Part shown: in pieces, positions 815-50,677 of the stretch
Position numbering within the stretch: the stretch's first letter is position 1
Layout: each line of letters starts with the position of its first letter
NCBI RefSeq assembly: GCF_002153425.1
Contig: NZ_KZ119600.1
Location: forward strand, 4,812,335 to 4,873,469
Length of the DNA stretch: 61,135 nucleotides
Origin: Litchfieldia alkalitelluris
GTDB lineage: Bacteria; Bacillota; Bacilli; Bacillales; Salisediminibacteriaceae
Reading direction: 5' to 3'
Made by a program: the position numbers and the translations under genes
Notes under the pieces: generated by a model
Told to the model about the DNA's origin: nothing
Databases searched by the model: none
The model's input: only the letters and a program-made list of their open reading frames with translations

Positions 815-1006
815 ATGAAGACTGAAACTCATGAAAAATCAAATTTGAGTCTTCATTTTCCCAGAATGAAGACTGAAACTCATGAGAAACCAGAATTGGG
901 TCTTCATTTTCCCAGAATGAAGACTGAACTCCAGAAAAAACTAGATTTGAGTCTTCATTTCCTCAGAACGAAGCCTGCCTCACGCAAGAATAAAGACCTA
1001 TCATCG
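815..1006 (+). repeat. 51-bp tandem array A (3 units plus decayed fourth)
   Basis: Three consecutive units start at 815, 866 and 917, each exactly 51 bp; a diverged fourth begins at 968. Each unit holds the arm ATGAAGACT, about 24 nt, the complementary arm AGTCTTCAT and a 9-nt linker (TTTCCCAGA). The arms can pair within a unit or, with a shorter loop, across a unit boundary. The architecture and much of the sequence match array C at 50 kb. The 69-codon frame through it has no ribosome binding site and is a by-product of the multiple-of-three period. Confidence 0.9.
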
Positions 1007-1104
1007 TTTTTAATGATCAGCTAATTAATTGTGTAACTGTGTTACTATTAAATGTAGAATAACAAAAGATATTTCACATCATCACTAGGAAGAAGGTGTG
1101 TAGT

Positions 1105-2070
1105 ATGGAAAGCTCTCCGAGATTACTAAAGCGTTTTTCTAAGGATTTAAATCATTTTTATGGTATCACTCCTGTTGGTATTTATGAGGCACCAAGGGGT
1201 TTCGCAGCAGAAACATTTTTTGTAGATACGGAAGATCATTCATATTTTTTGAAGATCATGCATAACCCAAGACGACAAAATATATTTAAAAATGGTTTAA
1301 GGGTAGTAGATGCTTTAGTTAAAAGTGGCATTGATTATATTACTAGGGTCGTTACATTAAGCACAGGTGAATTATTTTTTGAAAAAGATGGTTCCGTCAT
1401 CGCATTATTTAAACGAATAGATGCAAAGCAAAGCTATGAGTATAATAGGGAAGCCGTATTTAGAAAACTTGCTCATATATATCGTACTTCAATGAATATT
1501 CCGGAAAGGGATAGCTTTATGAAGGAAGAGTTTAGTGACCATTTCATTAAGGGGTACGAAGAGAACGTCCAATTTATTCTAAGTCATGAGGTAAAAGGGG
1601 AGGAAGCTCAGGAAGTAAAAGACATGTTAATTCCTCATAAAGAGTTTCTAAAATCCTGTCCTGAAACTATTAAAGAGACGATCGCTAAATGCCAGAATGA
1701 GCATGCAGATTACTATATTACTCACAGCGATATCATACCCAATATAATGATTGCGGAAAATGGAGATCATTTTATTATAGATTTTGATGAAACTATTTTT
1801 GCCCCATTAGAAAGGGATGGTTTTTTGACCATTGCAGCAAAAAATGAAGACAGTAAACTTTGGTTATCTATCATGAGAGAATTTTTCCCAGGGTACGAAG
1901 TAAACGAAACCTTTATAAAGTACTATTTGTACGAACGGTTTATGATCGACTTAACTAGCTTTATCCAAGATCTTTTACATAATCCAGATAGAGAATATCG
2001 GGTGAAGGTAGTAAATTCAACGAGAGATTATTTGTTAGGATGGCTATTACCTATGATGGTGAAATATTAA
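1105..2070 (+). CDS. Aminoglycoside phosphotransferase/choline kinase-fold protein
   Basis: A 321-residue protein of the APH-type kinase superfamily. The Brenner-type catalytic motif HSDIIPN is at residues 207-213 (catalytic Asp 209) and the metal-binding IIDFDE at about 224-229. The N-terminal lobe has an FLKI strand that should carry the ATP-binding Lys. The substrate cannot be told: relatives phosphorylate antibiotics, sugars, homoserine or spore-coat components (CotS-like). Start ATG 1105 is preferred over GTG 1096 because AAGGTG sits 6 nt upstream of it. The gene stands alone between the rRNA operon and csfB, a position where B. subtilis has no such gene, and ends in its own terminator, so it is probably accessory. 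Confidence 0.8.
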   Translation: MESSPRLLKRFSKDLNHFYGITPVGIYEAPRGFAAETFFVDTEDHSYFLKIMHNPRRQNIFKNGLRVVDALVKSGIDYITRVVTLSTGELFFEKDGSVIALFKRIDAKQSYEYNREAVFRKLAHIYRTSMNIPERDSFMKEEFSDHFIKGYEENVQFILSHEVKGEEAQEVKDMLIPHKEFLKSCPETIKETIAKCQNEHADYYITHSDIIPNIMIAENGDHFIIDFDETIFAPLERDGFLTIAAKNEDSKLWLSIMREFFPGYEVNETFIKYYLYERFMIDLTSFIQDLLHNPDREYRVKVVNSTRDYLLGWLLPMMVKY

Positions 2071-2112
2071 TTGTTTTTGCATAAAGTGGAGTGTATTGAT
2101 TAGCAATTATAG

Positions 2113-2144
2113 AGACATTACTCAGATGGAGGGTGTCTTTTTTT
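2113..2144 (+). terminator. Terminator, near-copy of the rRNA terminator
   Basis: Stem AGACATTACTC / GGAGGGTGTCT followed by seven T. It shares AGACATT, CTC and GAGGGTGTCTTTTTTT with the terminator at 589-618, differing by one insertion and loop changes. Confidence 0.85.
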
Positions 2145-2250
2145 GCTTTGATTAGAAAAATATAATGAAGGTGTAACAATTTTTGAATCATGTGCATAAA
2201 TTGAATCTACATCAACAATTAAATCTACTTTATTTTTTCAAAGAATCAAA

Positions 2251-2280
2251 GAATAGAAAAGCACCTTCTCGGCCATACTA
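2251..2280 (+). promoter_or_regulatory. Sigma-F/sigma-G promoter of csfB
   Basis: GAATA, 18 bp, CATACTA, with GG two bases before the -10. This fits the sigma-G consensus (GHATR-N18-CATWMTA) and the sigma-F -10 consensus (GGNNANAMTW). The predicted start site lies only about 14 nt before the csfB ATG, so the leader would begin almost at the Shine-Dalgarno. Confidence 0.75.
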
Positions 2281-2300
2281 TGAATGGAGGTGGAGAAACT

Positions 2301-2528
2301 ATGGGTAGCTTAATTTCTTCAAAGAAACAGGATAGTTTACAAGAATGCTTGATTTGTGAACAGGAAAGGGATAATGGGATTCATTTATTAAACTATTTTA
2401 TTTGTAAAAACTGTGAGAGTGACATTGTTCAATCAGAGACAAAAGATCAAGGGTATAATCTCTATGTTCACAGGTTAAGAAAAGTGAAAAATGCACTTAT
2501 GCCTACGGGTCAGAATAAAGCTAATTAA
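2301..2528 (+). CDS. csfB: Anti-sigma-G factor Gin (CsfB)
   Basis: A 75-residue zinc-finger protein with Cys16-x2-Cys19 and Cys35-x2-Cys38, the signature of Gin. In B. subtilis Gin binds sigma-G (and sigma-E) and prevents premature sigma-G activity in the forespore. The spacing between the knuckles, the GIHLL segment and the following YxxYVxxLRxxK stretch match the family. ATG 2301 is chosen over an in-frame ATG at 2280 because GGAGGTGG lies 7 nt before it. A forespore-type promoter precedes it and a terminator follows. The position right after an rRNA operon is conserved with B. subtilis. Confidence 0.88.
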   Translation: MGSLISSKKQDSLQECLICEQERDNGIHLLNYFICKNCESDIVQSETKDQGYNLYVHRLRKVKNALMPTGQNKAN

Positions 2529-2562
2529 ATCTAATAGTGAATATTTGTCTTATATAATACAT

Positions 2563-2608
2563 AGGGGACCTACGATTTGTTTCATAAACGTAGGTTTCCT
2601 ATTTTTTT
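2563..2608 (+). terminator. csfB terminator
   Basis: Stem AGGGGACCTACG / CGTAGGTTTCCT (two G-U pairs) followed by ATTTTTTT. Confidence 0.85.
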
Positions 2609-2719
2609 GCGTAAAATAAAGTGATTCATTAAAACTAATATGTATTTGACCTATTCATTCCCATTAAAGATAAAGACTTGTATAATAAAAGTAGTATTGA
2701 TGGAAAGAGGTTAATTTAT

Positions 2720-4177
2720 ATGGATCAGAGTAAGACACCTCTATACGATAAGGTGATGGAACATCAGAAAAAGTCACCTATATCTTTTCATGTACCTGGT
2801 CATAAAAATGGATCTGTATTCAATAAAATGGGCAAAGACATCTTTGAACAGATCTTAAGGATCGATGTAACGGAAATTGAGGGAATGGATGACTTGCATC
2901 AACCTGATGGTGTCATACAAGAGGCGCAAGATTTGGCAGCGAATTTGTATGGAGTTAAGGATACATTTTTCTTAGTGGGTGGATCTACTGTTGGTAATTT
3001 AGCAGCTATTATGAGTTCGCTAAAAACTGGAGATAAAGTAATTGTCCAAAGGAATTCACATCAATCAGTCTTCCATGGTATTGAGCTTGCTGGAGCAACT
3101 CCAGTTTTTATCCATCCTGATGTTGATGTTGAAACAGGGTTGTCTTTAGGTGTTTCAAAGTATGCATTAAAAGAGACTATTGAACGTTTTCCAATGGCAA
3201 AAGCAATTATTCTTACAAATCCTACATATGAAGGCTATGGGCAGCCACTAGACGATCATGTGGAGTTGGCTCATCATGCAGGAATGATCGTCATTATTGA
3301 TGAGGCCCATGGTGCTCATCTTGTTTTGAAAGATAGTCATTGGCCTGTATCTTCCATTCATGCTGGTGCAGATATCATCATCCAGTCTGCACATAAAATG
3401 CTTCCTGCAATGACGATGACGGCATTTTTACACATAAACAGTAGTCGAATAAACAAGGGTAGGGTAAAGAACTATCTTCGTATGCTGCAGTCAAGCAGTC
3501 CATCCTATCCTCTCATGGTATCATTAGATTTAGGAAGAGCATATTTGGCGAAGATACTAGAGAGCGATTGGAGCAGAATGACAGATCATCTATTGCAGTT
3601 TAAAGAGGGATTAAATCGTGGAGATGGCTGGGTTCGATCACCTAATAGGATAAATCAATATGTTCAAGACCCTTTAAAGTTAGTGTTTGTTGCTGATGAA
3701 TACATAAGTACGGACACTTGGAAGGAAAAGATGGAGTCATTGAACGTTTTTCCAGAGCTGGTTACCCCAAACCATATACTACTAACGCTTCCGTTGACTG
3801 TAGATGGACTCGCAACGGCTGATTGGACAAGTTTGATGAAACGTAGCCTTTTGGGTGAAAAAAATGGTTACGTCATAAAAAGGGATAACATAAAAAAATT
3901 CACTGTAAACGAAAATGAATCTATTTTTTCCGAAGCGGTGGTTCCACTTTCTCAGTTATTAGAGATGGAAGTTTTTAAAGTTCCATGGACAGAAAGTATA
4001 GGATTAGTGGCTGCAGAAACGATTACACCTTATCCACCTGGAATTCCGTTGATCATGAAGGGTGAATATATTAGTGAATATCATATTGTACAATTACATC
4101 GTCATATAGAGAATAAAACTAGATTTCAAACTGGAGATTCTTGGTTCAAGGATGGAATCTCTGTAGTAATGAAATGA
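2720..4177 (+). CDS. yaaO: Orn/Lys/Arg decarboxylase family PLP enzyme (YaaO)
   Basis: A 485-residue fold-type I PLP enzyme of the Orn/Lys/Arg decarboxylase major-domain family. Visible are the N-terminal PGHKNG motif (about 26-31), the cofactor-contacting [10 protein letters not shown] (about 191-200) and the Schiff-base lysine in [10 protein letters not shown] (Lys226). The enzyme would decarboxylate a basic amino acid toward polyamines; which one is not readable from sequence (B. subtilis SpeA, a relative, uses arginine). Start ATG 2720 follows AGAGG; an upstream in-frame ATG at 2678 lacks a binding site. It precedes tmk by 13 bp and is probably co-transcribed with tmk, as in B. subtilis. 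Confidence 0.88.
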
Positions 4178-4190
4178 AGGAGAATGTATT

Positions 4191-4820
4191 GTGGAAGGTA
4201 TTTTTATAACGTTTGAAGGTGGAGAAGGTGCAGGTAAAACGACTGTTCTTCAAACCGTAAAGAATAGATTAGAGAAGGAAGGAAAAAAGGTTTTTACCAC
4301 TCGTGAGCCTGGAGGAAGTGTTATTGCTGAGAAAATAAGGGAAGTAATATTAGACCCATCCCATACAGAGATGGATCCTCGTACGGAAGCATTGCTCTAT
4401 GCGGCTGCAAGGAGGCAACACCTAGTAGAAAAGGTTATACCATATCTAGAGCAAGGATATATTATTTTGTGTGATCGATTTATCGACAGTAGTTTAGTAT
4501 ATCAAGGTGATGCGAGGGGAATTGGGATTGAGGAAGTACTGGCAATTAATTTATTTGCGACAGAAGGCCTCCTACCACAACTAACCTTATACTTTGATAT
4601 TGATCCAGAAGAAGGATTAAAGAGAATCCAGGCTAATAGTGATAGAGAGGTTAATCGTTTGGATCAAGAGAAACTTGATTTTCACGTGAATGTAAGGAAA
4701 GCATATCAAAGTTTAGCAAAAAAAGAAGCCAATAGAATTAAAACGGTGGATGCTTCCCCTACTATAGAAGACGTAGTAGAGAATGTTTGGGCTCAATTAA
4801 AGGAAACCATAGAAAAATAG
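4191..4820 (+). CDS. tmk: Thymidylate kinase
   Basis: A 209-residue dTMP kinase that makes dTDP for DNA synthesis. The P-loop GGEGAGKT is at residues 10-17, followed by the TREPGG substrate motif and a DR(F/Y) segment (CDRFIDSS). The length is normal. It begins with GTG, placed by AAGGAG about 8 nt upstream. The tmk-darA-holB order is the conserved Firmicute arrangement that links nucleotide supply, a c-di-AMP sensor and the clamp loader. Confidence 0.96.
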
Positions 4821-4860
4821 TAGGCCGGAATTATACAATAACTCTGAAAAATCGTTATAA

Positions 4861-5289
<429 letters not shown>

Positions 5290-5299
5290 GCGGAGATAT

Positions 5300-6289
5300 A
5301 TGATGAATTGGGAAACCCTTTCGTTAACCCAACCAACTGTAGTTAAAATGCTTACAAATAGTTTAAGAAAAGATCGCCTAGCTCATGCCTATTTATTTGA
5401 AGGTGGAAGAGGCAGTGGGAAATTAGAAGTGGCAAAGGTATTAACAAAGTCCTTTTTTTGCGAAAATAAAATGGATGAAGAGCCTTGTCTTTCATGTGGC
5501 GATTGTAAACGTATAGATTCTGGGAACCACCCAGATGTTCATATTATTAATACCGATAGTCAATCCATTAAGGTAGATCAAATTAGGCACTTGAAAAAGG
5601 AATTTAGCTTCCGTGGAGTGGAATCTAAGAAGAAAGTATACTTAGTGGAAGAAGCAGAGAAAATGACTATTGGTGCTGCAAATAGTATCTTAAAGTTTTT
5701 AGAGGAGCCTGAGGGGGAAGCTTTGGCTGTTTTAATGACAACACAGTTTCACCGTATTATTAAAACAATTGTTTCGAGATCCCAAGTTATATCCTTTGCC
5801 CCCTTAGCACCTGAACAGCTTGTGGACAAGCTTATTGGTGAAGGGGTTTCAGAAACAGATGCAAAAGCAGTTTCGCAGATTACTTATGATTTGGAAGAAG
5901 CTATCCAACTCTGCCAAGATAATTGGATTGCGCAAGCTAGAAATAAAGTGATACAATTAGTAGATGAGATTTCAATGCGTCCAAAGCATGCATTTATTAC
6001 GGTTCAAGAGGCATGGATGCCTTTTTTCAAAGAAAAACAGGACATGCAATTAGGACTGGATTTATTAATGATATGGTATCGTGATATTCTTAGACTTCAA
6101 ATTAATGACGATAGTCAAATTGTTTATATAGATCAAATCAATAAACTACAAGAATATTCGTTAAAGCTATCTCAGAAAAAGCTGGGATCCAACCTCCAGG
6201 CGGTAATGAATGCAAAACGCAGATTGGATGCCAACACCGCTCCCCAGCTATTAATGGAGCAATTGCTTCTTAGGTTACAGGAGGGATAA
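5300..6289 (+). CDS. holB: DNA polymerase III delta' subunit
   Basis: A 329-residue clamp-loader subunit. It has an AAA+ N-terminal domain with a P-loop-like GGRGSGK (about 36-42), a four-cysteine zinc module (C-x8-C-x2-C-x2-C, CLSCGDC at about 60), and the SRSQ sensor/arginine-finger segment near residue 153. It works in the cytoplasmic replisome to load the beta clamp. ATG 5300 is adjacent to another ATG at 5303; GGCGGAG upstream could serve either. The following gene ricT starts 1 bp after the stop, so the two are translationally linked. Confidence 0.93.
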   Translation: MMNWETLSLTQPTVVKMLTNSLRKDRLAHAYLFEGGRGSGKLEVAKVLTKSFFCENKMDEEPCLSCGDCKRIDSGNHPDVHIINTDSQSIKVDQIRHLKKEFSFRGVESKKKVYLVEEAEKMTIGAANSILKFLEEPEGEALAVLMTTQFHRIIKTIVSRSQVISFAPLAPEQLVDKLIGEGVSETDAKAVSQITYDLEEAIQLCQDNWIAQARNKVIQLVDEISMRPKHAFITVQEAWMPFFKEKQDMQLGLDLLMIWYRDILRLQINDDSQIVYIDQINKLQEYSLKLSQKKLGSNLQAVMNAKRRLDANTAPQLLMEQLLLRLQEG

Positions 6290-6290
6290 C

Positions 6291-7118
6291 GTGCATCGAG
6301 TAGTAGGTGTTCGATTTAAAAAAGCCGGGAAAATTTATTATTTTTCACCAGGCGATTTAACTATAAATGTTGATGACTATGTCATCGTAGAAACAGCCCG
6401 TGGTATTGAATTCGGGAAAGCTGTTATCGGTATTAAAGAGGTAGGAGAGAACGACGTCGTTCTTCCACTGAAAAATGTTTTAAGGCTAGCCACCGATAAA
6501 GATAAGCTTATCGTGCAGGAAAATCGGGAGGAAGCTCAAAAAGCGTTCGAAGTCTGCCAAAGTAAAATTGAAAGCCATGAGCTCGATATGAAACTAGTGG
6601 ATGTGGAATACACATTTGATAGGAATAAAATTTTATTTTATTTCACAGCAGATGGGAGAATTGACTTTAGGGAGCTAGTTAAGGATTTAGCGTCCATTTT
6701 TCGAACGAGAATTGAGCTACGCCAGATAGGTGTACGTGATGAAGCGAAAATGCTAGGGGGCATAGGCCCATGTGGTCGAATGCTTTGCTGTTCTACTTTC
6801 TTAGGTGATTTTGAGCCAGTTTCTATTAAAATGGCAAAAGATCAAAATTTATCACTTAATCCCACTAAGATTTCTGGATTATGCGGTCGTCTTATGTGCT
6901 GTTTAAAATATGAGAATGATTTGTATGAGTCTGCTAAAAAAGAGCTCCCAGATCTTCATGATGAGCTAAAAACAAGTTATGGCAGAGGAAAAGTAGTAGG
7001 ATTGAATATGTTAGAAAGACTAATTCAAGTAGAAGTATTTGAATCTAGTCGTGTCATCGAATTCACATTGGATGAGCTCATTGAAGAAGGAGCTATTACC
7101 AGCGAAGCCACGAAATAA
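6291..7118 (+). CDS. ricT: RicT/YaaT, PSP1-domain Fe-S protein of the Y-complex
   Basis: A 275-residue PSP1-domain protein. Cysteines 161, 166, 167 and 198, 203, 204 fall in the motifs PCGRMLCC and LCGRLMCC, which in the B. subtilis RicAFT complex take part in 4Fe-4S cluster binding. RicAFT stimulates RNase Y mRNA processing and affects the sporulation phosphorelay, competence and biofilm formation. GTG 6291 is the start, with AGGAGGG upstream. It lies between holB and yabA as in B. subtilis. Confidence 0.95.
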   Translation: MHRVVGVRFKKAGKIYYFSPGDLTINVDDYVIVETARGIEFGKAVIGIKEVGENDVVLPLKNVLRLATDKDKLIVQENREEAQKAFEVCQSKIESHELDMKLVDVEYTFDRNKILFYFTADGRIDFRELVKDLASIFRTRIELRQIGVRDEAKMLGGIGPCGRMLCCSTFLGDFEPVSIKMAKDQNLSLNPTKISGLCGRLMCCLKYENDLYESAKKELPDLHDELKTSYGRGKVVGLNMLERLIQVEVFESSRVIEFTLDELIEEGAITSEATK

Positions 7119-7133
7119 TGAGGTGTGGGTATC

Positions 7134-7481
7134 GTGAATAAAAATGAGATCTTTACCCGAGTTAGTCAATTGGAGGAACGAATTGGCGGGCTACATCATG
7201 AACTTGGGGAGTTAAAAGAGCAACTAGCTCTATTACTTGAAGAAAATCATCATTTGCAAATTGAAAATGCTAATTTGCGCCAAAGAATGGAATCAGAACA
7301 GAAATCTAAACCAAATGAGCAGGAGGAAACAGGGGATCGTCTAAAGCCTGATTTTGGTGAAGGATACGATAACTTAGCCCGACTTTATCAAGAAGGCTTT
7401 CATATTTGCAATATGCATTATGGTAGCATTCGTAAAGAGGGTGACTGTCTGTTTTGCTTATCCTTTTTAAATAAAAAGTGA
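7134..7481 (+). CDS. yabA: Replication initiation control protein YabA
   Basis: A 115-residue protein with an N-terminal leucine-zipper coiled coil (residues about 5-60) and a C-terminal zinc-binding tail (HICNMHYG and CLFC). YabA bridges DnaA and DnaN and prevents over-initiation of replication. GTG 7134 is chosen over GTG 7125 because GAGGTG (7120-7125) is then correctly spaced and the protein starts MNKNEIF like the family. It is followed by a terminator. Confidence 0.93.
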
Positions 7482-7487
7482 TGCAAC

Positions 7488-7522
7488 AAAGTCTTTCCGA
7501 TATTGATCGGAGAGACTTTTTC
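7488..7522 (+). terminator. yabA terminator
   Basis: A stem of about 14 bp (AAAGTCTTTCCGAT / ATCGGAGAGACTTT) followed by T residues, closing the yaaO-yabA group. Confidence 0.9.
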
Positions 7523-7669
7523 TCATGATAATTTATAAGACTCTTGGAATTCATGTATGTCTAGCTTTGGCGACTACTTGCGCAAGTTCATCAACAACTG
7601 TATTTTCAGTTATAATTAAGAAATAAATTAGGCGTACTAATAGCCATATAAAAAGGAACGAGTTTAAAA

Positions 7670-9544: not shown

Positions 9545-9552
9545 ATTTGCAT

Positions 9553-9596
9553 AAAAAAAGAAGATGGGCAGTCAATTGACTATACATCTTCTTTTT
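9553..9596. terminator. Bidirectional terminator between rsmI and abrB
   Basis: A-rich arm AAAAAAGAAGATG and T-rich arm CATCTTCTTTTT enclose an 18-nt loop containing the palindrome GTCAATTGAC. U-tracts form on both strands, suiting the convergent genes rsmI (+) and abrB (-). Confidence 0.88.
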
Positions 9597-29627: not shown

Positions 29628-30167
29628 ATGAAAGCAACTGGAATTGTTAGACGTATTGATGATTTAGGTCGTGTGGTAATTCCAAAGGAAATTCGCCGCA
29701 CGTTAAGGATCCGAGAAGGGGATCCACTTGAAATTTTTGTGGACAGAGATGGAGAAGTAATTTTAAAGAAGTACTCACCTATCTCAGAGTTAGGTGATTT
29801 TGCAAAAGAGTACGCAGAAGCACTTTATGACAGCTTAAATCACGCTGTCTTAATTGCGGACCGCGATACATATATTGCGGTTTCTGGAGGATCTAAAAAA
29901 GAATATCACAATAAAGGTATTGGAGAGCTTGTTGAAACAGCGATGAATGAACGGAAGACAATGATCGAAGGACAAGCAGGTGAATACCAATTAGTTGGCG
30001 ATGCGAAAGAGCAAGTAAATGGCTATTGTATTGCACCGATTATTGCAAATGGAGACCCAATAGGGGCTGTAACATTAATTGCAAAGGACTCTAATGGCAT
30101 GGGAGATGTTGAAAAGAAGTTGGCAGAAACTGCAGCAGGCTTCCTAGCACGCCAGATGGAGCAATAG
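29628..30167 (+). CDS. spoVT: Stage V sporulation regulator SpoVT
   Basis: A 179-residue forespore transcription factor. Residues 1-50 form an AbrB-like swapped-hairpin DNA-binding domain (MKATGIVRRIDDLGRVVIPK, a paralogue of AbrB at 9.7 kb); residues about 56-178 form a GAF domain. It tunes sigma-G genes and affects germination. Ligand unknown. It stands between mfd and yabM as in B. subtilis, but a large tandem array separates it from yabM here. Confidence 0.97.
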   Translation: MKATGIVRRIDDLGRVVIPKEIRRTLRIREGDPLEIFVDRDGEVILKKYSPISELGDFAKEYAEALYDSLNHAVLIADRDTYIAVSGGSKKEYHNKGIGELVETAMNERKTMIEGQAGEYQLVGDAKEQVNGYCIAPIIANGDPIGAVTLIAKDSNGMGDVEKKLAETAAGFLARQMEQ

Positions 30168-30216: not shown

Positions 30217-30251
30217 GAGAGGCACTGTTAAAAGGTGCCTCTCCTTTTTTG
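30217..30251 (+). terminator. spoVT terminator
   Basis: GAGAGGCAC pairs with GGTGCCTCTC around an 8-nt loop, followed by CTTTTTTG. Confidence 0.9.
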
Positions 30252-30352
30252 TTGTTAGTTGGTGTTGTTGGTGGTGGGTGCCTCACTGCTAATGATAAAG
30301 AGATAGAGATCTTAATGATGGTGGATGTCTATTTGGGGACGGATTGGTAATA

Positions 30353-31068
30353 GGCTCAAAAAAGTGGGAAATGAAAATGAAGAAATTTGAGCCTAATCAA
30401 GGGCTGATCAGGTATGAAAAGGAGAAAAATGAAAATCTCATACCAGATCGAAGGCTGATCAGGTATGAAAAGGAGAAAAATGAAAATCTCATACCAGATC
30501 GAAGGCTGATCAGGCATGAAAAGGAGAAAAATGAAAATCTCATACCAGATCGAAGGCTGATCAGGCATGAAAAGGAGAAAAATGAAAATCTCATACCAGA
30601 TCGAAGGCTGATCAGGCATGAAAAGGAGAAAAATGAAAATCTCATACCAGATCGAAGGCTGATCAGGCATGAAAAGGAGAAAAATGAAAATCTCATACCA
30701 GATCGAAGGCTGATCAGGCATGAAAAGGAGAAAAATGAAAATCTCATACCAGATCGAAGGCTGATCAGGCATGAAAAGGAGAAAAATGAAAATCTCATAC
30801 CAGATCGAAGGCTGATCAGGCATGAAAAGGAGAAAAATGAAAATCTCATACCAGATCGAAGGCTGATCAGGCATGAAAAGGAGAAAAATGAAAATCTCAT
30901 ACCAGATCGAAGGCTGATCAGGCATGAAAAGGAGAAAAATGAAAATCTCATACCAGATCGAAGGCTGATCAGGTATGAAAAGGAGAAAAATGAAAATCTC
31001 ATACCAGATCGAAGGCTGATCAGGTATGAAAACGGAAAAAACCCAAATCTCATACCAGATCAAGGGCA
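30353..31068 (+). repeat. 51-bp tandem array B (about 13 units plus a variant leader unit)
   Basis: Twelve near-identical units of exactly 51 bp start at 30406 and every 51 bp to 30967; a diverged thirteenth starts at 31018. Each unit holds the arm GGTATGA (GGCATGA in the central units), a 20-nt purine-rich spacer, the arm TCATACC and a 17-nt linker with GATC sites. A leader unit (30353-30393) has different but perfectly complementary arms, GGCTCAAA and TTTGAGCC. Long frames are open on both strands because 51 is a multiple of three; none has a binding site. The array sits between the spoVT terminator and yabM. Confidence 0.95.
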
Positions 31069-31202: not shown

Positions 31203-32813
31203 ATGGTGGTTAAAAATAACGAAACTGGCTCATGGTTAAAAGGTGCTTTCTATTTATCCTTTGCCGCACTAATTGTAAAAGTATTAAGTGCTTTATATAA
31301 AGTCCCTTATCAAAACATGACAGGGGATCTAGGTTATTATGTATATCAACAAGTTTATCCATTGTATGGCATTGCTTTAGTATTAAGTACATACGGCTAT
31401 CCTTTAGTGATTGCGAAGATGACGGCAGATTGGCGGAATAGCAAGGATAACATTAACTTAGGAGACAGATTGTCTGTATTATTTATATGGTTATTTATTA
31501 TTCATGCTGCAGCTGGAGCTGGAATTATCATTTTTTCTGAAACGATTTCCATATGGATGGGGGACGCCAATTTAACTACACCTCTTAGATGGATGGGACT
31601 ACCTTTCTTTATGATCCCTTTTTTAGCTGTTGGTAGAGGCTATTATCAAGGGTTAGAAAACATGATACCTACAGCTTTTTCGCAAGTTGTTGAACAAGTT
31701 GTTCGTGTGATTGCCATTCTTGCAGTAGCTTGGGTGTTGATAAAATATGATCCATACTTAGCAGGAATATCTGCAGGAGCAGGGGCACTACTTGGGGGTA
31801 TTGCAGGATTCATCACTTTAGTCGCTATAATGAAGAAGGATGTAACACTTACTAAGCTCTTAAAAGAGAGAGTACAGGGAATTTTCCATTTTCATCAGAC
31901 TTGGAAAAAAGATGTGAAAGAGTTATTCACAGCGGGATTTTTTGTATCTGTAAGTGCCATGTCTTTAATTATTTTTCAATTAATTGATGCTTTTACAATA
32001 TACCGTACCCTTGAGTTAAATGGCATGAATCAAATGGTCGCTGCTGAACTAAAAGGAGTTTACGACCGAGCATGGCCAATTGTACAAATGGGTGCAGTTG
32101 TGACGACTGTATTTTCTTACGCAGTAATTCCATATGTTTCGAAGGCAGTTGCACTAAACCGAAGAGAGCACCTTCAAGCACTAGTTAAGCAGGCTATTAA
32201 AATCTGTTTAGTTTTTGGTTCAGCTGCCACGATCGGACTCATTGCAATTATGCCCCATTTAAACCCCATGCTATTTGGAAATGCTGAAGGTACTACTTCT
32301 CTACAGATTTTATCAGGAACCGTACTATTTGCGGCTTTATTTATGACAATGGCAGCACTATTACATGCTGTTGGAAATGCAGGTTACGCAGCAGGGATCT
32401 TACTTATTGGAATTGCTTTGAAGGTCATTTTAAATATATTATTGATCCCCATTTATAGTATTGAAGGAGCGGCAATAGCTTCGACAACTGCATTTGTTTG
32501 TATGTCTTTGGTATTATTTATAATATTAATTAGGAAAAAGCTAATGTTGAAATGGAACCACTCGTTTTTTATAAAAACAATTGTTTCTTTAGCTGTCATG
32601 ATGATTGTGGTTGTGATGTATCAATGGGGCATGACACAATTGATTGTGAGGGAATGGGGAGAATTAAACCGCTTATTACATACCCTCCTTTCCCTATCGT
32701 CTGCAGTACTTGGGGCTTGTTTATTTATCATTACCATTTGGCTTTTCAGATTATTTACAAAAAAGGAGTGGGAGGAACTGCCGAAGGTCTCCAAAATACT
32801 CCCATATAGATAA
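31203..32813 (+). CDS. yabM: MOP-superfamily lipid/polysaccharide flippase (YabM, SpoVB-like)
   Basis: A 536-residue polytopic protein with about 14 hydrophobic segments. It opens with the family motif WLKGAFYLSFAALIVKVLSALYK region (residues about 12-34). It belongs to the PST/SpoVB/MurJ branch of the MOP exporters, which flip lipid-linked sugars such as lipid II. The substrate of YabM is not known. GGGAGAG precedes ATG 31203. It leads the yabM-yabN-rqcP-yabP-yabQ-divIC group. Confidence 0.88.
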   Translation: MVVKNNETGSWLKGAFYLSFAALIVKVLSALYKVPYQNMTGDLGYYVYQQVYPLYGIALVLSTYGYPLVIAKMTADWRNSKDNINLGDRLSVLFIWLFIIHAAAGAGIIIFSETISIWMGDANLTTPLRWMGLPFFMIPFLAVGRGYYQGLENMIPTAFSQVVEQVVRVIAILAVAWVLIKYDPYLAGISAGAGALLGGIAGFITLVAIMKKDVTLTKLLKERVQGIFHFHQTWKKDVKELFTAGFFVSVSAMSLIIFQLIDAFTIYRTLELNGMNQMVAAELKGVYDRAWPIVQMGAVVTTVFSYAVIPYVSKAVALNRREHLQALVKQAIKICLVFGSAATIGLIAIMPHLNPMLFGNAEGTTSLQILSGTVLFAALFMTMAALLHAVGNAGYAAGILLIGIALKVILNILLIPIYSIEGAAIASTTAFVCMSLVLFIILIRKKLMLKWNHSFFIKTIVSLAVMMIVVVMYQWGMTQLIVREWGELNRLLHTLLSLSSAVLGACLFIITIWLFRLFTKKEWEELPKVSKILPYR

Positions 32814-41804: not shown

Positions 41805-41835
41805 TTAGTAACGGATAAGAGGACGGTGTTTTGCA

Positions 41836-42594: not shown

Positions 42595-42608
42595 AGGAGG
42601 GTCTTTTA

Positions 42609-43058: not shown

Positions 43059-44445
43059 ACAATTTATTAAAAAGCATAATTTAATAGAAGAAGATGATCA
43101 CATTATCGTAGGAGTTTCAGGCGGAGTAGATAGCATGGCATTACTACACTATTTATCCTCAAGTTTTCCCAATCAGATTACTGTCGCTCATGTGGAACAT
43201 GGACTAAGGGGAAAGGCGTCAGTGGAAGATATGGAGTTTGTAAAAATATATTGTGGTAAAAAAGGTATTCCGTTTTTTTACCATCAGCCAGATGTAGTTA
43301 AATTGATGAAGGAAAAAGGATATTCAACACAAGAAGCTGCTCGGGAATGTAGGTACTCTTGGTTTCATTCTTTAATGAAGCAATTTAAAGCCAATAAGCT
43401 TGCAGTCGCTCATCATGGGGATGATCAGATCGAAACGGTACTCATGAGACAAGTGAGAGGAAGTTTAACAGGTCTACAAGGTATACCTGTAAAACGTAAA
43501 ATTAGTGATGGCTTCATTATTCGTCCATTTCTATGCGTGAGTAAAAAGGATATCATTGATTATTGTTCCGATAATGGTGTTACATACAGAGAAGATGAAT
43601 CAAATTACAAAGATACGTACCAAAGAAATAGGTTCAGAAAAGTGCTCCCTTTTTTAAAAGAAGAGAATCCAAAAGTACATCAGTCCTTTCAGCGTCAAAG
43701 TGAATGGATTCAAGAAGATAACCGCTTGCTAGAGTTAATGGCAAAGAAAGAAATAGAAACAGTCATTATTAAGAAAAATCAGAATAATATACAACTATCG
43801 ATTGATGGTTTCCTCTCTATACCAACGCCTTTACAAAGACGTGGTCTTCATCTAATATTAAACTATCTATCGCCTGATGCGGAACACTTTTTGAATGGGA
43901 TACATGTCGATGATATGATTACACTGATGGAGAAACAATTCCCATCAGGAATGATACATTTACCTAAGGGGATAGTTGTTGAGAAAAGCTATAACCGATG
44001 TTTAATTACAAAGGAGTCTGGAAAAAAGGAAGCAGACTGTGAGGACAAAAAAGTACTGATTCCGATTCCAGGGTTAGTCCATTGGAAAACGGGAAAAATA
44101 ACTTCAACCATACATAAGAATGAAGAGACTGGTTCAAATGGTGACGCTATATTTTTCGCAGATGCTAAGGCAATTGACTTTCCACTCTATGTGAGGTCAA
44201 GGAGACATGGAGATCGAATCTCTCCTTTAGGATTAAAGGGATCATCTAAGAAAATCAAATCAATATTTATTGACGCGAAAATTCCAAAGGCTGAACGGGA
44301 GACATGGCCTATTGTTACAGATGCAAATGGACAGGTTATATGGATTCCCTTTTTGAAACGGTCTGAAATCGGAAAAGTTACTGCTCAGACGGAAGAGGTG
44401 ATTACTCTCGTTTTTAATAAAGATGATGAAAATATCAAAAGATAG
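43042..44445 (+). CDS. tilS: tRNA(Ile)-lysidine synthase
   Basis: A 467-residue enzyme that converts C34 of the CAU-anticodon tRNA-Ile to lysidine so that it reads AUA. The PP-loop SGGVDS is at residues 26-31; the N-type ATPase domain (to about 220) is followed by a linker and the C-terminal TilS domain (RSRRHGDRISPLGLKGSSKK region). ATG 43042 matches the family start; an in-frame ATG at 43018 adds eight residues. tilS-hprT-ftsH is a conserved Firmicute order. Confidence 0.96.
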   Translation: MNQTVEQFIKKHNLIEEDDHIIVGVSGGVDSMALLHYLSSSFPNQITVAHVEHGLRGKASVEDMEFVKIYCGKKGIPFFYHQPDVVKLMKEKGYSTQEAARECRYSWFHSLMKQFKANKLAVAHHGDDQIETVLMRQVRGSLTGLQGIPVKRKISDGFIIRPFLCVSKKDIIDYCSDNGVTYREDESNYKDTYQRNRFRKVLPFLKEENPKVHQSFQRQSEWIQEDNRLLELMAKKEIETVIIKKNQNNIQLSIDGFLSIPTPLQRRGLHLILNYLSPDAEHFLNGIHVDDMITLMEKQFPSGMIHLPKGIVVEKSYNRCLITKESGKKEADCEDKKVLIPIPGLVHWKTGKITSTIHKNEETGSNGDAIFFADAKAIDFPLYVRSRRHGDRISPLGLKGSSKKIKSIFIDAKIPKAERETWPIVTDANGQVIWIPFLKRSEIGKVTAQTEEVITLVFNKDDENIKR

Positions 44446-44449
44446 TATA

Positions 44450-44492
44450 TAAGCTGTTTATATAAGTAGTCATTGTTTAAACAGCTTTATAA
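44450..44492 (+). other. Hairpin between tilS and hprT
   Basis: TAAGCTGTTTA pairs with TAAACAGCTTTA around about 17 nt but lacks a good U-tract. It may be a partial terminator or a processing site. Confidence 0.5.
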
Positions 44493-44538
44493 TACATAGG
44501 ACATTTAATGCATTTATTTAGGAGGGTCTACTACACAC

Positions 44539-45078
44539 ATGAGAGAAGACATTAAAGAGGTACTAATATCAGAAGAACAAATCCAAGAAAAAGTGAAAGA
44601 ATTAGGTAAGGCTTTGACCGAGGAGTACGACGATAAGTTTCCACTAGTGATCGGTGTATTGAAGGGGTCATTACCTTTTATGGCAGATTTAATAAAAAAC
44701 ATTGATACACATATTGAACTGGATTTAATGGATGTATCTAGCTATGGAAATGATATGGTTTCTTCTGGCGAAGTTAAAATCGTCAAAGATTTGAATACAT
44801 CAGTTGAAGGAAGAGATGTACTTATTTTAGAAGACATTATTGATAGCGGTCTTACCTTAAGTTATTTAGTGAACTTATTACAATATAGGAAAGCAAAGTC
44901 TGTAAAAGTAGTCACTCTTCTAGATAAGCCTGAGGGTCGTAAAGTGGATTTAGTACCTGACTTAGCTGGTTTTGTTGTTCCTGATGAATTTGTCGTAGGA
45001 TATGGGCTAGATTATGCAGAGAAGTATAGGAACCTCCCATATGTAGGTATTCTTAAGCCTGAAGTATATCAAGGTTAA
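44539..45078 (+). CDS. hprT: Hypoxanthine-guanine phosphoribosyltransferase
   Basis: A 179-residue purine salvage enzyme that makes IMP and GMP from PRPP. The PRPP-binding loop [13 protein letters not shown] is at residues 94-106. GGAGGG lies upstream of ATG 44539. In Bacillus and Listeria HprT is linked in activity and expression to TilS and FtsH, and its inhibition by (p)ppGpp is known. Confidence 0.97.
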
Positions 45079-45163
45079 TTTTTAAAAAATATTTTACAAA
45101 AACGATTAAATTATTGTCGTTTCGCAAAAGTTAACATTTAGGTAAGTGATAAGGGCTTCTTTA

Positions 45164-45193
45164 TTGTAGTATCGAATAAATATATGGTAGTAT
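45164..45193 (+). promoter_or_regulatory. Candidate ftsH promoter
   Basis: TTGTAG, 18 bp, TAGTAT, about 38 bp before ftsH; weak match to sigma-A. Confidence 0.35.
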
Positions 45194-45230
45194 TATCTAA
45201 GCATATTTTGACCGTGGGAGGAGGTAAAGA

Positions 45231-47261
45231 ATGAATCGAATTTTCCGTAATACTATATTTTACCTATTCATTTTCTTAGTCATCGTTGGGATCGTAAGCT
45301 TGTTCCAAGATGATAGGGTAGAGACTAAGGAATTTGATCTGAATACATTCCAACAGGAATTAGAAGAAGGTAATATTAAATCGATCAGCCTGAAGCCACA
45401 TAATGACGTGTATGTTGCTACAGGTGAGCTAAGAAGAGAAATAGATGGAACGAACAACTTTACCGTTAATATCATCAACCTTGAACCATATTTGGTTGAT
45501 ATTTTAGCACAGATAGGCGATTCTGAAGCAGATGGAATAGAATCAATCTTTACTGAACAAGCCGATGAGCCAAGCGGCTGGGCCAATTTCTTTATTACGA
45601 TGATTCCATTTGTAATCATATTATTACTTTTCTTCTTCTTACTAAGCCAATCTCAGGGTGGCGGCAGCCGTGTCATGAATTTTGGTAAGAGTAAGGCGAA
45701 ATTAGTAAGTGAAGATAAGAAAAAGGCACGTTTTAAAGATGTTGCCGGTGCAGATGAAGAAAAGCAAGAGCTAGTAGAAGTGGTTGACTTCTTAAAAGAT
45801 CCACGTAAGTTTTCCCAAATTGGTGCACGTATCCCTAAAGGGGTTCTTTTAGTGGGACCTCCAGGTACTGGTAAAACGCTTCTTGCTCGTGCTGTAGCAG
45901 GGGAAGCTGGAGTTCCGTTCTTCTCCATTAGTGGTTCGGACTTTGTAGAAATGTTCGTCGGTGTCGGGGCTTCTCGTGTTCGAGACTTATTTGAAAACGC
46001 GAAGAAGAATGCACCATGTATTATCTTTATTGATGAAATTGATGCAGTTGGTCGTCGTCGTGGTGCCGGTCTTGGTGGTGGACACGATGAGAGGGAACAA
46101 ACTCTAAACCAATTGCTTGTTGAAATGGACGGTTTTGGTGTAAATGAAGGTATTATTTTAATTGCTGCTACAAACCGTGCAGATATTCTTGACCCAGCAT
46201 TATTACGTCCAGGACGTTTTGACAGACAAATAACTGTTGGCCGTCCAGATGTTAATGGCCGTGAAGAAGTACTTAAAGTACATGCTAAAAATAAGCCGTT
46301 AGCTGACGATGTAGATTTGAAAACAATCGCACAAAGAACACCAGGTTTTTCAGGTGCTGATTTAGAGAACTTGTTAAACGAGGCAGCTTTAGTTTCTGCT
46401 CGTGGAAACAAGGAGAAAATTGATATGGAAGCGGTCGAGGAAGCTATTGACCGTACTATCGCAGGACCGTCTAAGAAGAGTCGTGTTATCTCTGAAAAAG
46501 AGAAGAATATCGTTGCCCATCATGAAGCTGGACATACGGTAGTAGGTGTTAAACTTGAAAGTGCAGATCTTGTCCATAAAGTAACGATTGTACCACGTGG
46601 TCAAGCTGGTGGGTATGCAATGATGCTACCTAAAGAAGACCGTTACTTCATGACAAAGCCTGAACTCCTTGATAAAATTGTAGGACTTTTAGGTGGTCGT
46701 GTTGCAGAGGAAGTTATCTTTAACGAAGTAAGTACTGGAGCGCATAATGATTTCCAACGTGCTACTGGTATTGCCCGGAAAATGGTAATGGAATTCGGTA
46801 TGAGTGATAAGCTCGGACCAATCCAATTTGGTAACACGCAAGGTGAAGTATTCCTAGGTAGAGACATTAATAATGAGCAAAACTACAGTGAAGCAATTGC
46901 ACACGAAATTGACCTTGAAGTACAACGTATCTTAAAGGAATGTTATGAGCGTTGTAGACAAATCTTGGTTGAAAATAGAGACAGCCTTGAATTAGTTGCT
47001 GAAACGTTGCTTGTACATGAAACGTTAGATGCAGAGCAAATTAATTCCTTGATCAATGAAGGTAAACTTCCTGAAAATCACCATATGTCTAAAAAGATAA
47101 ATGGGGATACAGACGACAATAAGGACAGTGATGTTATAGTTAACATTCAAGGTAAAGATGAATCAACAGTAGCTGATTCCGAAACAGATACGGGTGTAGA
47201 AACATCATCTGAATCATCATCTGAATCTGAATCTGATGAAAATCAGGATCGGGAAAAATAA
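45231..47261 (+). CDS. ftsH: ATP-dependent zinc metalloprotease FtsH
   Basis: A 676-residue membrane AAA+ protease. Two membrane helices (about 8-25 and 118-139) flank an extracellular domain; the AAA+ module has Walker A GPPGTGKT (209-216), Walker [10 protein letters not shown] (about 264-272) and the second region of homology; the zinc site HEAGH is at 431-435. The C-terminal tail is unusually acidic and Ser/Glu-rich. In Bacillus it degrades Spo0E and membrane proteins and is needed for sporulation. Confidence 0.98.
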
Positions 47262-47272
47262 AAAATCATTAG

Positions 47273-47307
47273 AGAAAAGGGTGTCTGTTCTAGACATCCT
47301 TTTTCTT
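47273..47307 (+). terminator. ftsH terminator
   Basis: AGAAAAGGGTGTC pairs with GACATCCTTTTTCT around TGTTCTA; the 3' arm supplies the U-tract. Confidence 0.82.
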
Positions 47308-47340
47308 ACTAAATTTTTATGGTCAATAGAGGTGAACAAG

Positions 47341-48108
47341 ATGGTTTTAACAATGGATATTGGGAATTCCAACATTAGCATGGGGTTGTATGAAAAAAGT
47401 GATTTGAAATATCATTGGCGAATTAAAACGGATCCAGATAAAACAGCAGATGAATATGCCATGATACTAAAAAACTTATTTGATTTTGGCAATATAAGTA
47501 TCGAGGATATAGATGGCATCATCATATCATCTGTCGTTCCACCAATTATGTACACCATTCAGGAGATGTGTAAGAAGTACTTTCAGATAACTCCGATGGT
47601 CATTGGCCCAGGTATAAAAACTGGTTTGAACATCAAATATGATAATCCAAAAGAAGTGGGAGCTGACCGTATTGTGAATGCTGTTGCAGGCATAAAACTT
47701 TATGGCGCTCCACTCATTGTAGTAGACTTTGGAACAGCAACTACATACTGTTATATTAATGAGAATAAGGAGTATGTAGGTGGTGCTATTGCCCCTGGCA
47801 TTGGAATTTCCACAGAAGCATTGTATACCCGTGCCTCTAAATTACCGAGAATAGAAATTACAAAGGCTCAACATGTTATTGGAAAAAATACCGTTCATGC
47901 AATGCAATCTGGCGTTTTTTATGGATACGTGGGACAAGTTGAGGGAATTGTAAAACGTATGAAAAAACTATCTAAAGAAAGGCCTACTGTGATTGCTACT
48001 GGAGCTCTAGCAGAATTAATAACAGAAGAATCAACTGAGATTGATATGATGGACTCATTTTTAACATTAAAGGGCCTTCAAATTATATATGAGAAAAACA
48101 AAGGGTAA
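47341..48108 (+). CDS. coaX: Type III pantothenate kinase
   Basis: A 255-residue ASKHA-fold kinase for the first step of CoA synthesis. The phosphate-1 motif [10 protein letters not shown] (about 6-15), the GADRI motif (about 102-106) and [10 protein letters not shown] (about 122-131) are visible. GAGGTG precedes ATG 47341; 35 upstream codons in frame run over the ftsH terminator and are rejected. It is followed by hslO after 14 bp. Confidence 0.95.
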
Positions 48109-48122
48109 GGAGTGGAAGTGAT

Positions 48123-49016
48123 TTGTCAGATTACTTAATAAAAGCTTTAGGATATGATGGAACCGTTAGGGCATATGCGATTCGGTCAACAATGATGGTG
48201 CAAGAGGCTGCAAGTAAACATGATACTTGGAGAACGGTTACGGCTGCTCTAGGTCGTGCATTATCAGCAGGTACGATGATGGGTGCCATGCTTAAAGGCG
48301 AAGAAAAACTAACGATTAAAATAGAGGGCAGTGGTCCAGCAAGCCCCATTATTATTGATGCAAATAGCCGCGGGGAAGCGAGGGGATACGTATCGAATCC
48401 CCATGTAGATCCAGAACGAAAAAGTAATGGCAAGTTAAATGTCTCTGCAGCTGTTGGAGAACAAGGATATCTCTCCGTAGTAAAGGATCTTGGAATGAGA
48501 GAGAACTTTACTGGGAGCGTCCCCATTGTATCTGGAGAGTTAGCAGAAGATTTCACTTATTATTTTGCTACATCTGAGCAAACGCCATCTTCCGTAGCAT
48601 TAGGAGTCATCGTTGGTGAAGGGGATAAAGTGGAAGCTGCAGGTGGATTTATATTACAGATGATGCCTGGTGTTACAGATGAAACAATTGATGAAATTGA
48701 AAATAGACTGAGCGGTGTTCCTCCTATTTCTACTCTTATTCAAGAAGGTTTAACTCCGGAAGAGATACTAAATCAGTTGTTGGGCGAAGATAACGTTCAA
48801 ATTCTAGATACGATGGGAGTTCAATTCCAATGCCAATGTTCAAAAGAGCGTATTGGTAGGGCGATTATTGGTCTGGAAGAAAAAGATATTCGAGACATGA
48901 TAGAAGTAGACGAAGGAGCAGAAACCCATTGTCATTTCTGCAATGAACAATACTTATTCTCTAAAGGTGAATTAGAGGAGATTTTGAAGGAAAAACAAAA
49001 TTTAAGTGGAAATTAG
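48123..49016 (+). CDS. hslO: Redox-regulated chaperonin Hsp33
   Basis: A 297-residue oxidative-stress holdase. The four zinc cysteines are Cys237/Cys239 (CQC) and Cys270/Cys273 (CHFC); oxidation of this switch activates the chaperone. TTG 48123 gives the family N-terminus MSDYLIKALGYDG and follows AAGGAG by about 10 nt. The coaX-hslO-cysK order is conserved, but the PrsA-like gene yacD, located before cysK in B. subtilis, is missing. Confidence 0.95.
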   Translation: MSDYLIKALGYDGTVRAYAIRSTMMVQEAASKHDTWRTVTAALGRALSAGTMMGAMLKGEEKLTIKIEGSGPASPIIIDANSRGEARGYVSNPHVDPERKSNGKLNVSAAVGEQGYLSVVKDLGMRENFTGSVPIVSGELAEDFTYYFATSEQTPSSVALGVIVGEGDKVEAAGGFILQMMPGVTDETIDEIENRLSGVPPISTLIQEGLTPEEILNQLLGEDNVQILDTMGVQFQCQCSKERIGRAIIGLEEKDIRDMIEVDEGAETHCHFCNEQYLFSKGELEEILKEKQNLSGN

Positions 49017-49038
49017 TTAGTAAGATTAATTTATTAAA

Positions 49039-49067
49039 TTGATTCAATTGCAAATATTTGCTAAAAT
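49039..49067 (+). promoter_or_regulatory. Candidate cysK promoter
   Basis: TTGATT, 17 bp, TAAAAT in AT-rich DNA. A CymR operator is expected here from B. subtilis, but I cannot define one by eye. Confidence 0.5.
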
Positions 49068-49133
49068 AATTTCATAAAACATATGAAATTACTCGGGTTT
49101 TACGGACCGTCCATAAAAAGGAGGAGATTTCCG

Positions 49134-50063
49134 TTGGTTAAAGTAGTTGATTCCATTACAGAGCTTATTGGGGAAACACCATTAGTTAAGCTAAACCGTT
49201 TAGTAACGGAAGAACACGCAGATATATATTTGAAATTAGAATTTATGAATCCAGGTAGTAGCGTAAAAGATCGTATTGCTTTAGCTATGATTGAAGATGC
49301 CGAGGAAAAAGGTCTCCTAAAAGAAGGAGACACAATTGTAGAGCCGACTAGTGGAAACACAGGTATCGGTTTAGCAATGGTTGCAGCTGCAAAGGGTTAT
49401 CGGACCTTATTAGTAATGCCAGAAACAATGAGTCTAGAAAGAAGGAATCTTCTCCGGGCATATGGTGCTGAATTAGTCCTCACACCAGGACCAGATGGTA
49501 TGGGAGGAGCAATCCGCAAGGCCAAGGAACTTCAAAATCAAAAGGGGTACTTCATGCCTCAGCAGTTTGAGAATGAAGCAAACCCTCAAATTCATAGGGA
49601 AACAACAGGAAAAGAACTATTAGAACAAGTAGGAGATCAACTAGATGCCTTTATTTCAGGAATTGGTACTGGTGGGACTATTACAGGTGCAGGGAAACTA
49701 TTAAAAGAAAAGTTTCCGAATGTCCATATTGTAGCAGTTGAGCCTAAAGACTCTTCGATTCTATCAGGTGGAACTCCTGGCCCTCATAAGATTCAAGGGA
49801 TAGGTGCAGGCTTTGTACCAGAAATACTAGATACGGAAGTTTACGATGAAGTAATTGCAGTTTCTAATGAACAGGCTTTTGAGTACGCCCGTCGTGCTGC
49901 AAAAGAAGAAGGTATACTTGGTGGGATTTCCTCGGGAGCAGCTATCTATAGTGCATTAGAGGTAGCCAAGAAGCTAGGTAAAGGAAAAAAAGTTGTAGCT
50001 GTTATCCCAAGTAACGGTGAAAGATATTTAAGTACGCCATTATATCAATTTGATGAAGAATAA
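49134..50063 (+). CDS. cysK: Cysteine synthase
   Basis: A 309-residue O-acetylserine (thiol)-lyase. The PLP lysine is Lys45 in [18 protein letters not shown] (about 69-77) and the phosphate loop GTGGTITG follow. It makes cysteine from O-acetylserine and sulfide; in B. subtilis it also moonlights with CymR. TTG 49134 is the start, with GGAGGAG about 8 nt upstream and the family N-terminus [13 protein letters not shown]. Confidence 0.96.
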
Positions 50064-50076
50064 TTAGCTTTATTTA

Positions 50077-50122
50077 AAAGTGTCTAGGTGATTTTGTTTG
50101 AATCATCATAGGCGCTTTTTTG
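50077..50122 (+). terminator. cysK terminator
   Basis: A long stem of about 17 pairs with one bulge (AAAGTGTCTAGGTGATT / AATCATCATAGGCGCTTT, several G-U pairs) followed by TTTT. Array C begins immediately after. Confidence 0.82.
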
Positions 50123-50141
50123 TTTGGGGGAATTGGAATTA

Positions 50142-50677
50142 GGTTGAGAATCGATTTGAGTCCACATTTTTCTAGAATGCGGACTGAAAGGAGGGTGTGA
50201 ACCGATTTGAGTCCACATTTTTACGAAATGCGGACTGAAAGGAGGAAGGGAAGCAATTTGAGTCCGCATTTTTCTAGAATGTGGACTGAAAAGAGGAAGG
50301 GAAGCAATTTGAGTCCGCATTTTTCTAGAATGTGGACTGAAAAGAGGAAGGGAAGCAATTTGAGTCCGCATTTTTCTAGAATGCGGACTGAAGAGAGGAA
50401 GGGAAGCAATTTGAGTCCACATTTTTCTAGAATGCGGACTGAAAAGAGGTTGAGAATCGAATTGAGTCCACATTTTCACGAAATGCGGACTGAAGAGAGG
50501 TAGTGAAGTGATTTGAGTCCACATTTTCACGAAATGAGGACTGAAAAGAAGTTGAGAATCGAATTGAGTCCACATTTTCACGAAATGCGGACTGAAAAGA
50601 GGTAGTGAAGCGATTTGAGTCCACATTTTCACGAAATGCGGACTGAAAAGAGGTAGTGAAGCGATTTGAGTCCACAT
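50142..50677 (+). repeat. 51-bp tandem array C (10 full units plus ends)
   Basis: The arm GAGTCC(A/G)CAT occurs 11 times at exact 51-bp intervals from 50158 to 50668 with no indel. Each unit is ATG(C/T)GGACT, a 24-nt purine-rich spacer, AGTCC(A/G)CAT and a 9-nt linker. Two sub-types exist: linker TTTTCTAGA mainly in the left half and TTTCACGAA in the right half. The unit aligns end to end with array A, with arm bases changed on both sides. Frames open on both strands have no binding sites. Confidence 0.95.

Follow-up and report, generated by a model that had tools for sequence, protein, structure and literature searches.

Hairpin satellites of fixed period in Litchfieldia alkalitelluris and their polarity relative to replication

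Tandem repeats of 51–53 nt, constant in size and variable in sequence, were described by Subirana and Messeguer in 2021 in about 30% of the species among 176 Bacillus genomes (PMC8161180). In that account, one genome carries several unrelated families with species-specific sequences, the repeats are treated as non-coding, short signatures occur with their reverse within one repeat in many cases but not all, repeats of 20–21 nt form another length class, and B. (Evansella) cellulosilyticus is among the repeat-rich genomes. Here, we describe three tandem arrays (A, B, and C) in a 61,135-nt stretch of the 4.88-Mb genome of Litchfieldia alkalitelluris (C1:4812335-4873469, hereafter the window, with positions counted from its first letter), together with related arrays elsewhere in the genome. 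The arrays belong to this published, still unexplained class of Bacillus satellites. An earlier, sequence-only reading of the window had proposed a new repeat system, a proposal that falls because the class has already been described (PMC8161180). In the main families, array polarity agrees better with the direction of replication than with the direction of adjacent genes.

Period, families, and unit structure

Tandem Repeats Finder (TRF) recovered the three window arrays, with the 51-bp unit and complementary arms that had been claimed for them, all on the + strand. Array A (814..977) holds 3.2 copies with a TRF score of 228, array B (30402..31065) 13.0 copies with 98% matches and a score of 1256, and array C (50141..50678) 10.5 copies with a score of 520; for array C, periods of 102 (score 704) and 153 are also reported. 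In 20 block-shuffles of the window, the best score was 76. The three loci had been called unrelated, which is true of B, a family of its own, whereas A and C form one family (A/C; TTGAGTC ... GACTGAA). Array B had also been placed from 30353, a start that takes in one diverged edge unit (30352..30401, + strand) with other arms. The arms of this unit, AGGCTCAAA and TTTGAGCCT, read from the sequence at 30352-30394, are perfectly complementary and differ from those of the array; by eye, the right arm is in register and the left is shifted by about 7–8 nt.

The shared period extends well beyond the window. Altogether, 1.77 Mb of the genome was examined, and for a census of periods, 60 stretches of 20 kb (1.2 Mb) were searched at a TRF score of 80 or more. 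A period of 51–52 was found in 36 of the 75 tandem arrays; the remaining 39 were spread over 27 periods, with a maximum of four arrays each. Tandem repeats of this genome therefore do not simply come in many different periods, and a chance coincidence of the period is ruled out. The proposed constraint on length with free sequence holds genome-wide and independently of sequence, and a dominant 51–53 period is likewise a feature of the published class (PMC8161180). Most of the sampled 51–52 arrays (31/36) had a 52-nt unit, although 51-nt arrays are under-counted because the census stretches were set at round positions, away from the A/C or B places then known. Extrapolation from 36 arrays in 1.2 Mb suggests that hairpin satellites in this genome number roughly a hundred or more. 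The 93 arrays compared fell into nine sequence groups of 34, 20, 10, 9, 7, 5, 4, 3, and 1 arrays, in keeping with the several unrelated families per genome reported for Bacillus (PMC8161180). The A/C pattern occurs 96 times in forward and 67 times in reverse orientation, with 0 matches for a reversed-pattern control, and these 163 matches compare with at most one in each of eight congeners; B units occur at 25 places. Arrays of other periods include a 128-bp array with 99% matches at C1:808996-809780 and a 21-bp array at C1:818236-818553.

Both window families are built as imperfect hairpins. The A/C unit reads TTGAGTCNNCATT, a 7-nt loop, AATGNNGACTGAA, and finally a linker some 18 nt long, the two arms forming a stem of 13 positions with a common G-G mismatch. 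The B unit reads GATC-A-GGTATGA, a 20-nt loop, TCATACC-A-GATC, and a 7-nt loop, with a stem of 12 positions and a common A-A mismatch. The sequence-only reading was thus right about complementary arms, but the arms it gave (9/24/9/9 for A/C, 7/20/7/17 for B) were too short, each real arm being longer and containing one mismatch. In leading sense, the G-G mismatch was present in 176 of 212 A/C matches and the A-A mismatch in 65 of 96 B matches; A/C matches on the opposite strand had C-C in 131/194, as expected, and G-G in 24/194. Because the pattern matching permitted 3–4 substitutions, these pools hold some stray single matches outside arrays. Of 114 arrays, 85 had hairpin scores above the 95% level of shuffles (81/91 in this genome), in line with the signatures and their reverse in many of the Bacillus repeats (PMC8161180), and pieces of A, B, and C, folded as single-stranded DNA on both strands, were better than shuffles in six of six tests (z −3.1 to −5.8).

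Polarity relative to replication

The origin was placed at about 4.76–4.776 Mb and the terminus at about 2.36–2.5 Mb from skew and gene strand. When arrays were oriented by the mismatch motif of the stem (A/C, B, and family D), all 51 assigned arrays followed their replichore (31 + 20; Fisher p = 1.3e-14). This count set aside three ambiguous arrays and skipped those with fewer than two motif hits, including the B array at 3162229; the hits behind certain assignments are few (173266, 2:1; 1887195, 4:2), and 4518457, placed weakly in A/C by two hits, falls into a different cluster when whole units are grouped. Six A/C arrays have an rRNA-linked flank; the five of these loci that were scanned have an upstream 5S rRNA gene, so that the rRNA operons may have given these arrays their direction. 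Without these six, 45 of 45 arrays still followed the replichore (25 + 20; p = 3.2e-13). Clustering of whole units, which also weighs the linker, gave directions of 22:2 for A/C, 18:2 for B, and 9:1 for D, and 7:3, 7:2, 3:4, 5:0, 4:0, and 3:0 for the other groups; overall, 79 of 92 arrays lay in the majority direction, and none of 100,000 sign-flip permutations, which treat related arrays as independent, was as extreme.

Informative arrays are those with lagging-strand genes on both sides, where fork and gene direction disagree. All five assigned arrays of this kind followed replication and not the genes, which contradicts an orientation set by gene direction, while 3162229, the sixth such array of these families, follows its genes. 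Of the ten flanking reading frames of the five, nine have a Pfam match (one is a transposase; the exception lies to the left of 1817257).

Polarity was examined in two species. A query made from the B. cellulosilyticus consensus (PMC8161180) gave 102 matches in a second species, the congener G007, in which two families agree with the replichore at 21 of 22 arrays (17 of 18 when counted by site); directions of the second family were read by eye, and a 52-nt array at 3977323 belongs to neither family. The sole exception, C1:1193619-1194319 of G007, has a polarity opposed to the fork and to both neighbouring genes. Within the material consulted on such repeats, we found no mention of fork polarity; in the main text of PMC8161180, as available, neither fork polarity nor carrier elements were found, and none of the strings "orientation," "leading," and "palindrom" is present.

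At unpaired positions in leading sense, purines exceeded one half in 74 of 91 arrays of this genome and 21 of 23 of the second species, averaging 0.62 and 0.67, compared with 0.519 for the intergenic background and 0.535 over all DNA examined. Stem mismatches in this genome were purine-purine in 52 cases and pyrimidine-pyrimidine in 21, the purine excess coming from A/C and B.

A number of B and A/C arrays are embedded in interspersed elements whose ends are fixed. A right flank of about 110 bp is common to several A/C arrays, some of which have a left flank in common as well. B arrays have in common left modules, which by eye contain a terminator-like hairpin, and a right end some 30 bp long; the boundaries are sharp. 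The B elements insert both ways, 6 of the 15 left modules running with the fork and 9 against it. By eye, window arrays B and C have neither set of element ends; array A has the rRNA-linked flank.

Genomic setting of the arrays

All three window arrays lie outside recognised genes, as the sequence-only reading had it, and the published repeats are likewise not part of protein genes (PMC8161180). Genes were called by a simple codon-usage caller, and no array of the first census lay within a called gene, open reading frames (ORFs) covered by arrays over more than 35% of their length having been excluded beforehand. Divergent gaps held 4 of the 83 arrays for which genes had been called within 2.5 kb to both left and right, compared with 162 of the 707 gaps without arrays (p = 2.6e-5); for convergent gaps, the counts were 27 of 83 and 86 of 707 (p = 6.8e-6). 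This siting is the pattern of tolerated insertions. No target-site duplications were obvious at the element ends, for which no systematic test was made.

Array A follows a 5S rRNA gene (468..582, + strand; RF00001) and a left flank (654..813, + strand) that, by eye, resembles that of five other arrays (C1:4315, 218870, 2178482, 2349127, and 4781661). At all five loci scanned with Rfam (the window and the others apart from 218870), a 5S rRNA gene lies upstream. At C1 ~2347085-2348862 (L137:3686-5463), group II intron matches lie between the 5S rRNA gene and a downstream 51-bp array. Array A is followed by a gene for a phosphotransferase-family protein with an APH domain (1096..2070, + strand; Pfam). 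The SpoVT gene (29628..30167, + strand; Pfam) precedes array B, and a polysaccharide-flippase family gene (Polysacc_synt; 31203..32813, + strand; Pfam), presumably SpoVB-like, follows it. Array C lies between a PALP-family enzyme gene (49083..50063, + strand; Pfam), which we take to encode cysteine synthase, and a gene for a chorismate-binding enzyme of the PabB/TrpE type (50883..52325, + strand; Pfam). A terminator had been claimed before each array. This holds for array A, where the scan found a terminator-like stem-loop between the 5S rRNA gene and the array (587..614, + strand; two sites in the region compared with 0.3 in shuffles); the stem-loop before array B (30217..30243, + strand) is one site compared with 0.9 in shuffles, a number not above chance, and before array C the scan gave no + strand site, only a stem and T-run at ~50085-50123 being seen by eye. 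Elsewhere in the window, a 16S rRNA gene at 59315-60870 starts a second rRNA operon, followed by a Bacillaceae-1 small RNA match at 60984-61049.

The sites at spoVT and pabB are not conserved between congeners. In eight congeners, TRF found no array within 1.5 kb downstream of spoVT; on the gene's upstream flank, G006 has an array of 52-nt units. The region before pabB was examined in seven of the eight (the gene is split in G005), and only G002 has an array there, of 18.7 units of 52 nt with unrelated sequence. At this site, G003 has what looks by eye like a single unit of the G002 repeat, a possible seed or remnant. Arrays near spoVT also occur in Bacillus sp. P14.5 (period 52; L090 12356), Bacillus sp. 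SG-1 (period 53; L099 5013), and Cohnella sp. REN36 (period 51; L104 1628).

Possible explanations and known systems

We give about even chances to a reading in which the repeats are satellites whose action and growth take place on the DNA itself and are sensitive to fork direction. Small interspersed elements may spread seed units, which may afterwards increase in number through replication slippage or unequal exchange; in B, this would happen mostly where unit polarity agrees with the fork. Either the process itself or selection would thus work on DNA and not on a transcript or peptide, through (i) hairpins on the lagging-strand template or (ii) a protein that reads phased sites directionally. 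The period of 51–52 bp would then be a constraint of the DNA itself, about five helical turns placing the units on one face of the helix. A narrower proposal, to which we attach a clearly lower probability, is that the fork itself sets the polarity: seeds arrive either way, mainly fork-matched units amplify, and the mismatch can be rewritten after inversion. Copy numbers of B are consistent with growth mostly in the polarity that fits the fork, as the four inverted loci have 1.0–2.8 units, a maximum exceeded at 14 of 21 fork-oriented loci (rank test p = 0.013; counts entered by hand, mixed-strand locus 4671865 excluded). Rewriting is suggested by the inverted A/C element at 3861018, in which the edge unit has retained the mismatch polarity of the element itself and the amplified units are fork-matching, and by the inverted B array at 3144618, in which two of three units have the fork-matching mismatch.

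Several observations weigh against the DNA-level reading or its narrower form. The inverted B loci 3162229 and 3729448 show T/G at the mismatch site instead of the fork-matching A-A, and we hold the fork-set polarity at reduced probability because of them; the first, between two lagging-strand genes, also has a linker that runs with the genes and against the fork. There are only four inverted B loci, and inclusion of three single-unit loci moves the rank test to p = 0.059. B units adjoin four of six fork-oriented and three of nine inverted left modules, too few for proof, and the A/C right flanks run 9:1 with the fork (10 copies, excluding one 27-bp match at 4502207), so an insertion bias is possible. 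By purine content, seven of nine arrays between lagging-strand genes fit the fork. Some 52-nt families have weak or no polarity (the 7:3, 7:2, and 3:4 groups). In the second species, just 4 of 23 arrays had hairpins above the shuffled 95% level, and the purine-purine mismatch is not general, with 3 such cases there compared with 9 pyrimidine-pyrimidine and with pyrimidines in family D. Finally, no protein partner was identified.

Subirana and Messeguer suggest that such arrays are templates for structured non-coding RNA, as small RNA or protein sponge (PMC8161180), and transcription of such repeats has been reported in B. coagulans (PMC8625621). Stems with purine-rich unpaired positions are RNA features, and positions 8 and 9 of the A/C stem have compensatory changes, with 152 G-T compared with 85 A-C cells. 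However, a mutation bias of the leading strand could mimic this G-T excess, B shows 8 G-T compared with 15 A-C cells, and none of the Rfam matches that reach gathering threshold in the window falls on an array. Polarity against gene direction in the five assigned informative arrays (3162229 follows its genes) weakens the RNA reading, and we consider it unlikely, at perhaps one chance in a handful.

A similarly small share of probability goes to a functional platform, in which a DNA-binding protein reads phased directional sites for nucleoid organisation or segregation and selection keeps both period and polarity. The unit of about five helical turns, the fork polarity, and the avoidance of divergent gaps would fit, and a nucleoid role has also been proposed for the published class (PMC8161180). 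On the other hand, families and species have wholly different sequences, neither of the two sites compared is conserved among congeners, polarity is missing in some families, and no partner protein was found.

Polarity could also be a by-product of strand composition, with unpaired positions drifting to purines on a purine-rich leading strand. The leading-sense purine excess over all DNA examined and the fork-matching mismatches in the inverted elements 3861018 and 3144618 would be expected from this. However, the intergenic background is far closer to one half than the unpaired array positions are, and drift cannot produce a B unit that, linker included, keeps its sequence and is oriented 18:2. 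Family D also hints at consistent polarity where linkers are balanced in purines. We regard this explanation as improbable. Slightly less probable still is that a Y1 single-strand transposase or a RAYT spreads the units in REP-like fashion by working on the template of the lagging strand, thereby setting their polarity; IS608 and ISDra2 do target that template (PMC6006769). The genome has five Y1_Tnp genes (C1:310186, 3714046, 3980816, 4187216, and 4426070), one short and of IS200 type and four longer and presumably RAYT-like, and of the two relatives that lack such genes (G014 and G017), the one sampled, G017, had no 51–52 arrays in 400 kb. Yet no 51–52-bp array lies within about 1.5 kb of any of the five (3.3-kb loci), which leaves the RAYT link unsupported, Y1_Tnp genes occur in all seven other congeners tested, so that their presence does not discriminate, and the B elements run both ways, 6:9. 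Coding repeats of 17 amino acids seem unlikely, given that 31 of the 36 sampled arrays have 52-nt units and that, even though 51 nt does keep frames open, the four array-frame ORFs of B and C had no Pfam match above cut-off.

Taken together, the RNA and coding readings fit the arrays less well than the DNA-level reading. With a polarity that follows the fork, in five arrays even against the genes, the question moves away from RNA and towards replication, nucleoid, or segregation. If the fork does set their polarity, these repeats would form a class of replication-polar bacterial satellites, with a fork-dependent expansion that resembles trinucleotide-repeat expansion in its logic. If their expansion depends on fork direction, they would offer a bacterial model for orientation-dependent repeat expansion.

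Among other known systems, CRISPR arrays share the regular spacing of repeats, but there is no conserved repeat with unique spacers here; the whole 51-bp unit repeats (98% in array B), at dozens of loci. MIRU/VNTR loci of mycobacteria are intergenic tandem repeats of variable copy number. They had been offered as a loose analogy, which is not the best one, since many unrelated families have one period here. The REP, BIME, and REPIN sequences associated with TnpA-REP are likewise high-copy extragenic imperfect palindromes (PMC6006769, PMC8266576, PMC3733652), although REPs are 20–40 bp with a tagged end, whereas the arrays keep a fixed 51–52 period. Closer in form are the pneumococcal BOX elements, whose boxB module is 45 nt long. 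In these, fixed end modules surround a variable tandem module with predicted stem-loops (PMC3049150). The likeness, of form only, lies in a tandem module carried within an interspersed element and in convergent siting, BOX being over-represented between convergent genes; the host group is unrelated, and just 60.8% of BOX elements are on the leading strand, mirroring genes (PMC3049150). The nearest counterparts are the 52-nt Bacillus repeats (PMC8161180), with which the arrays share the dominant period, the several unrelated families, the short signatures with their reverse in one repeat, and the place outside protein genes.

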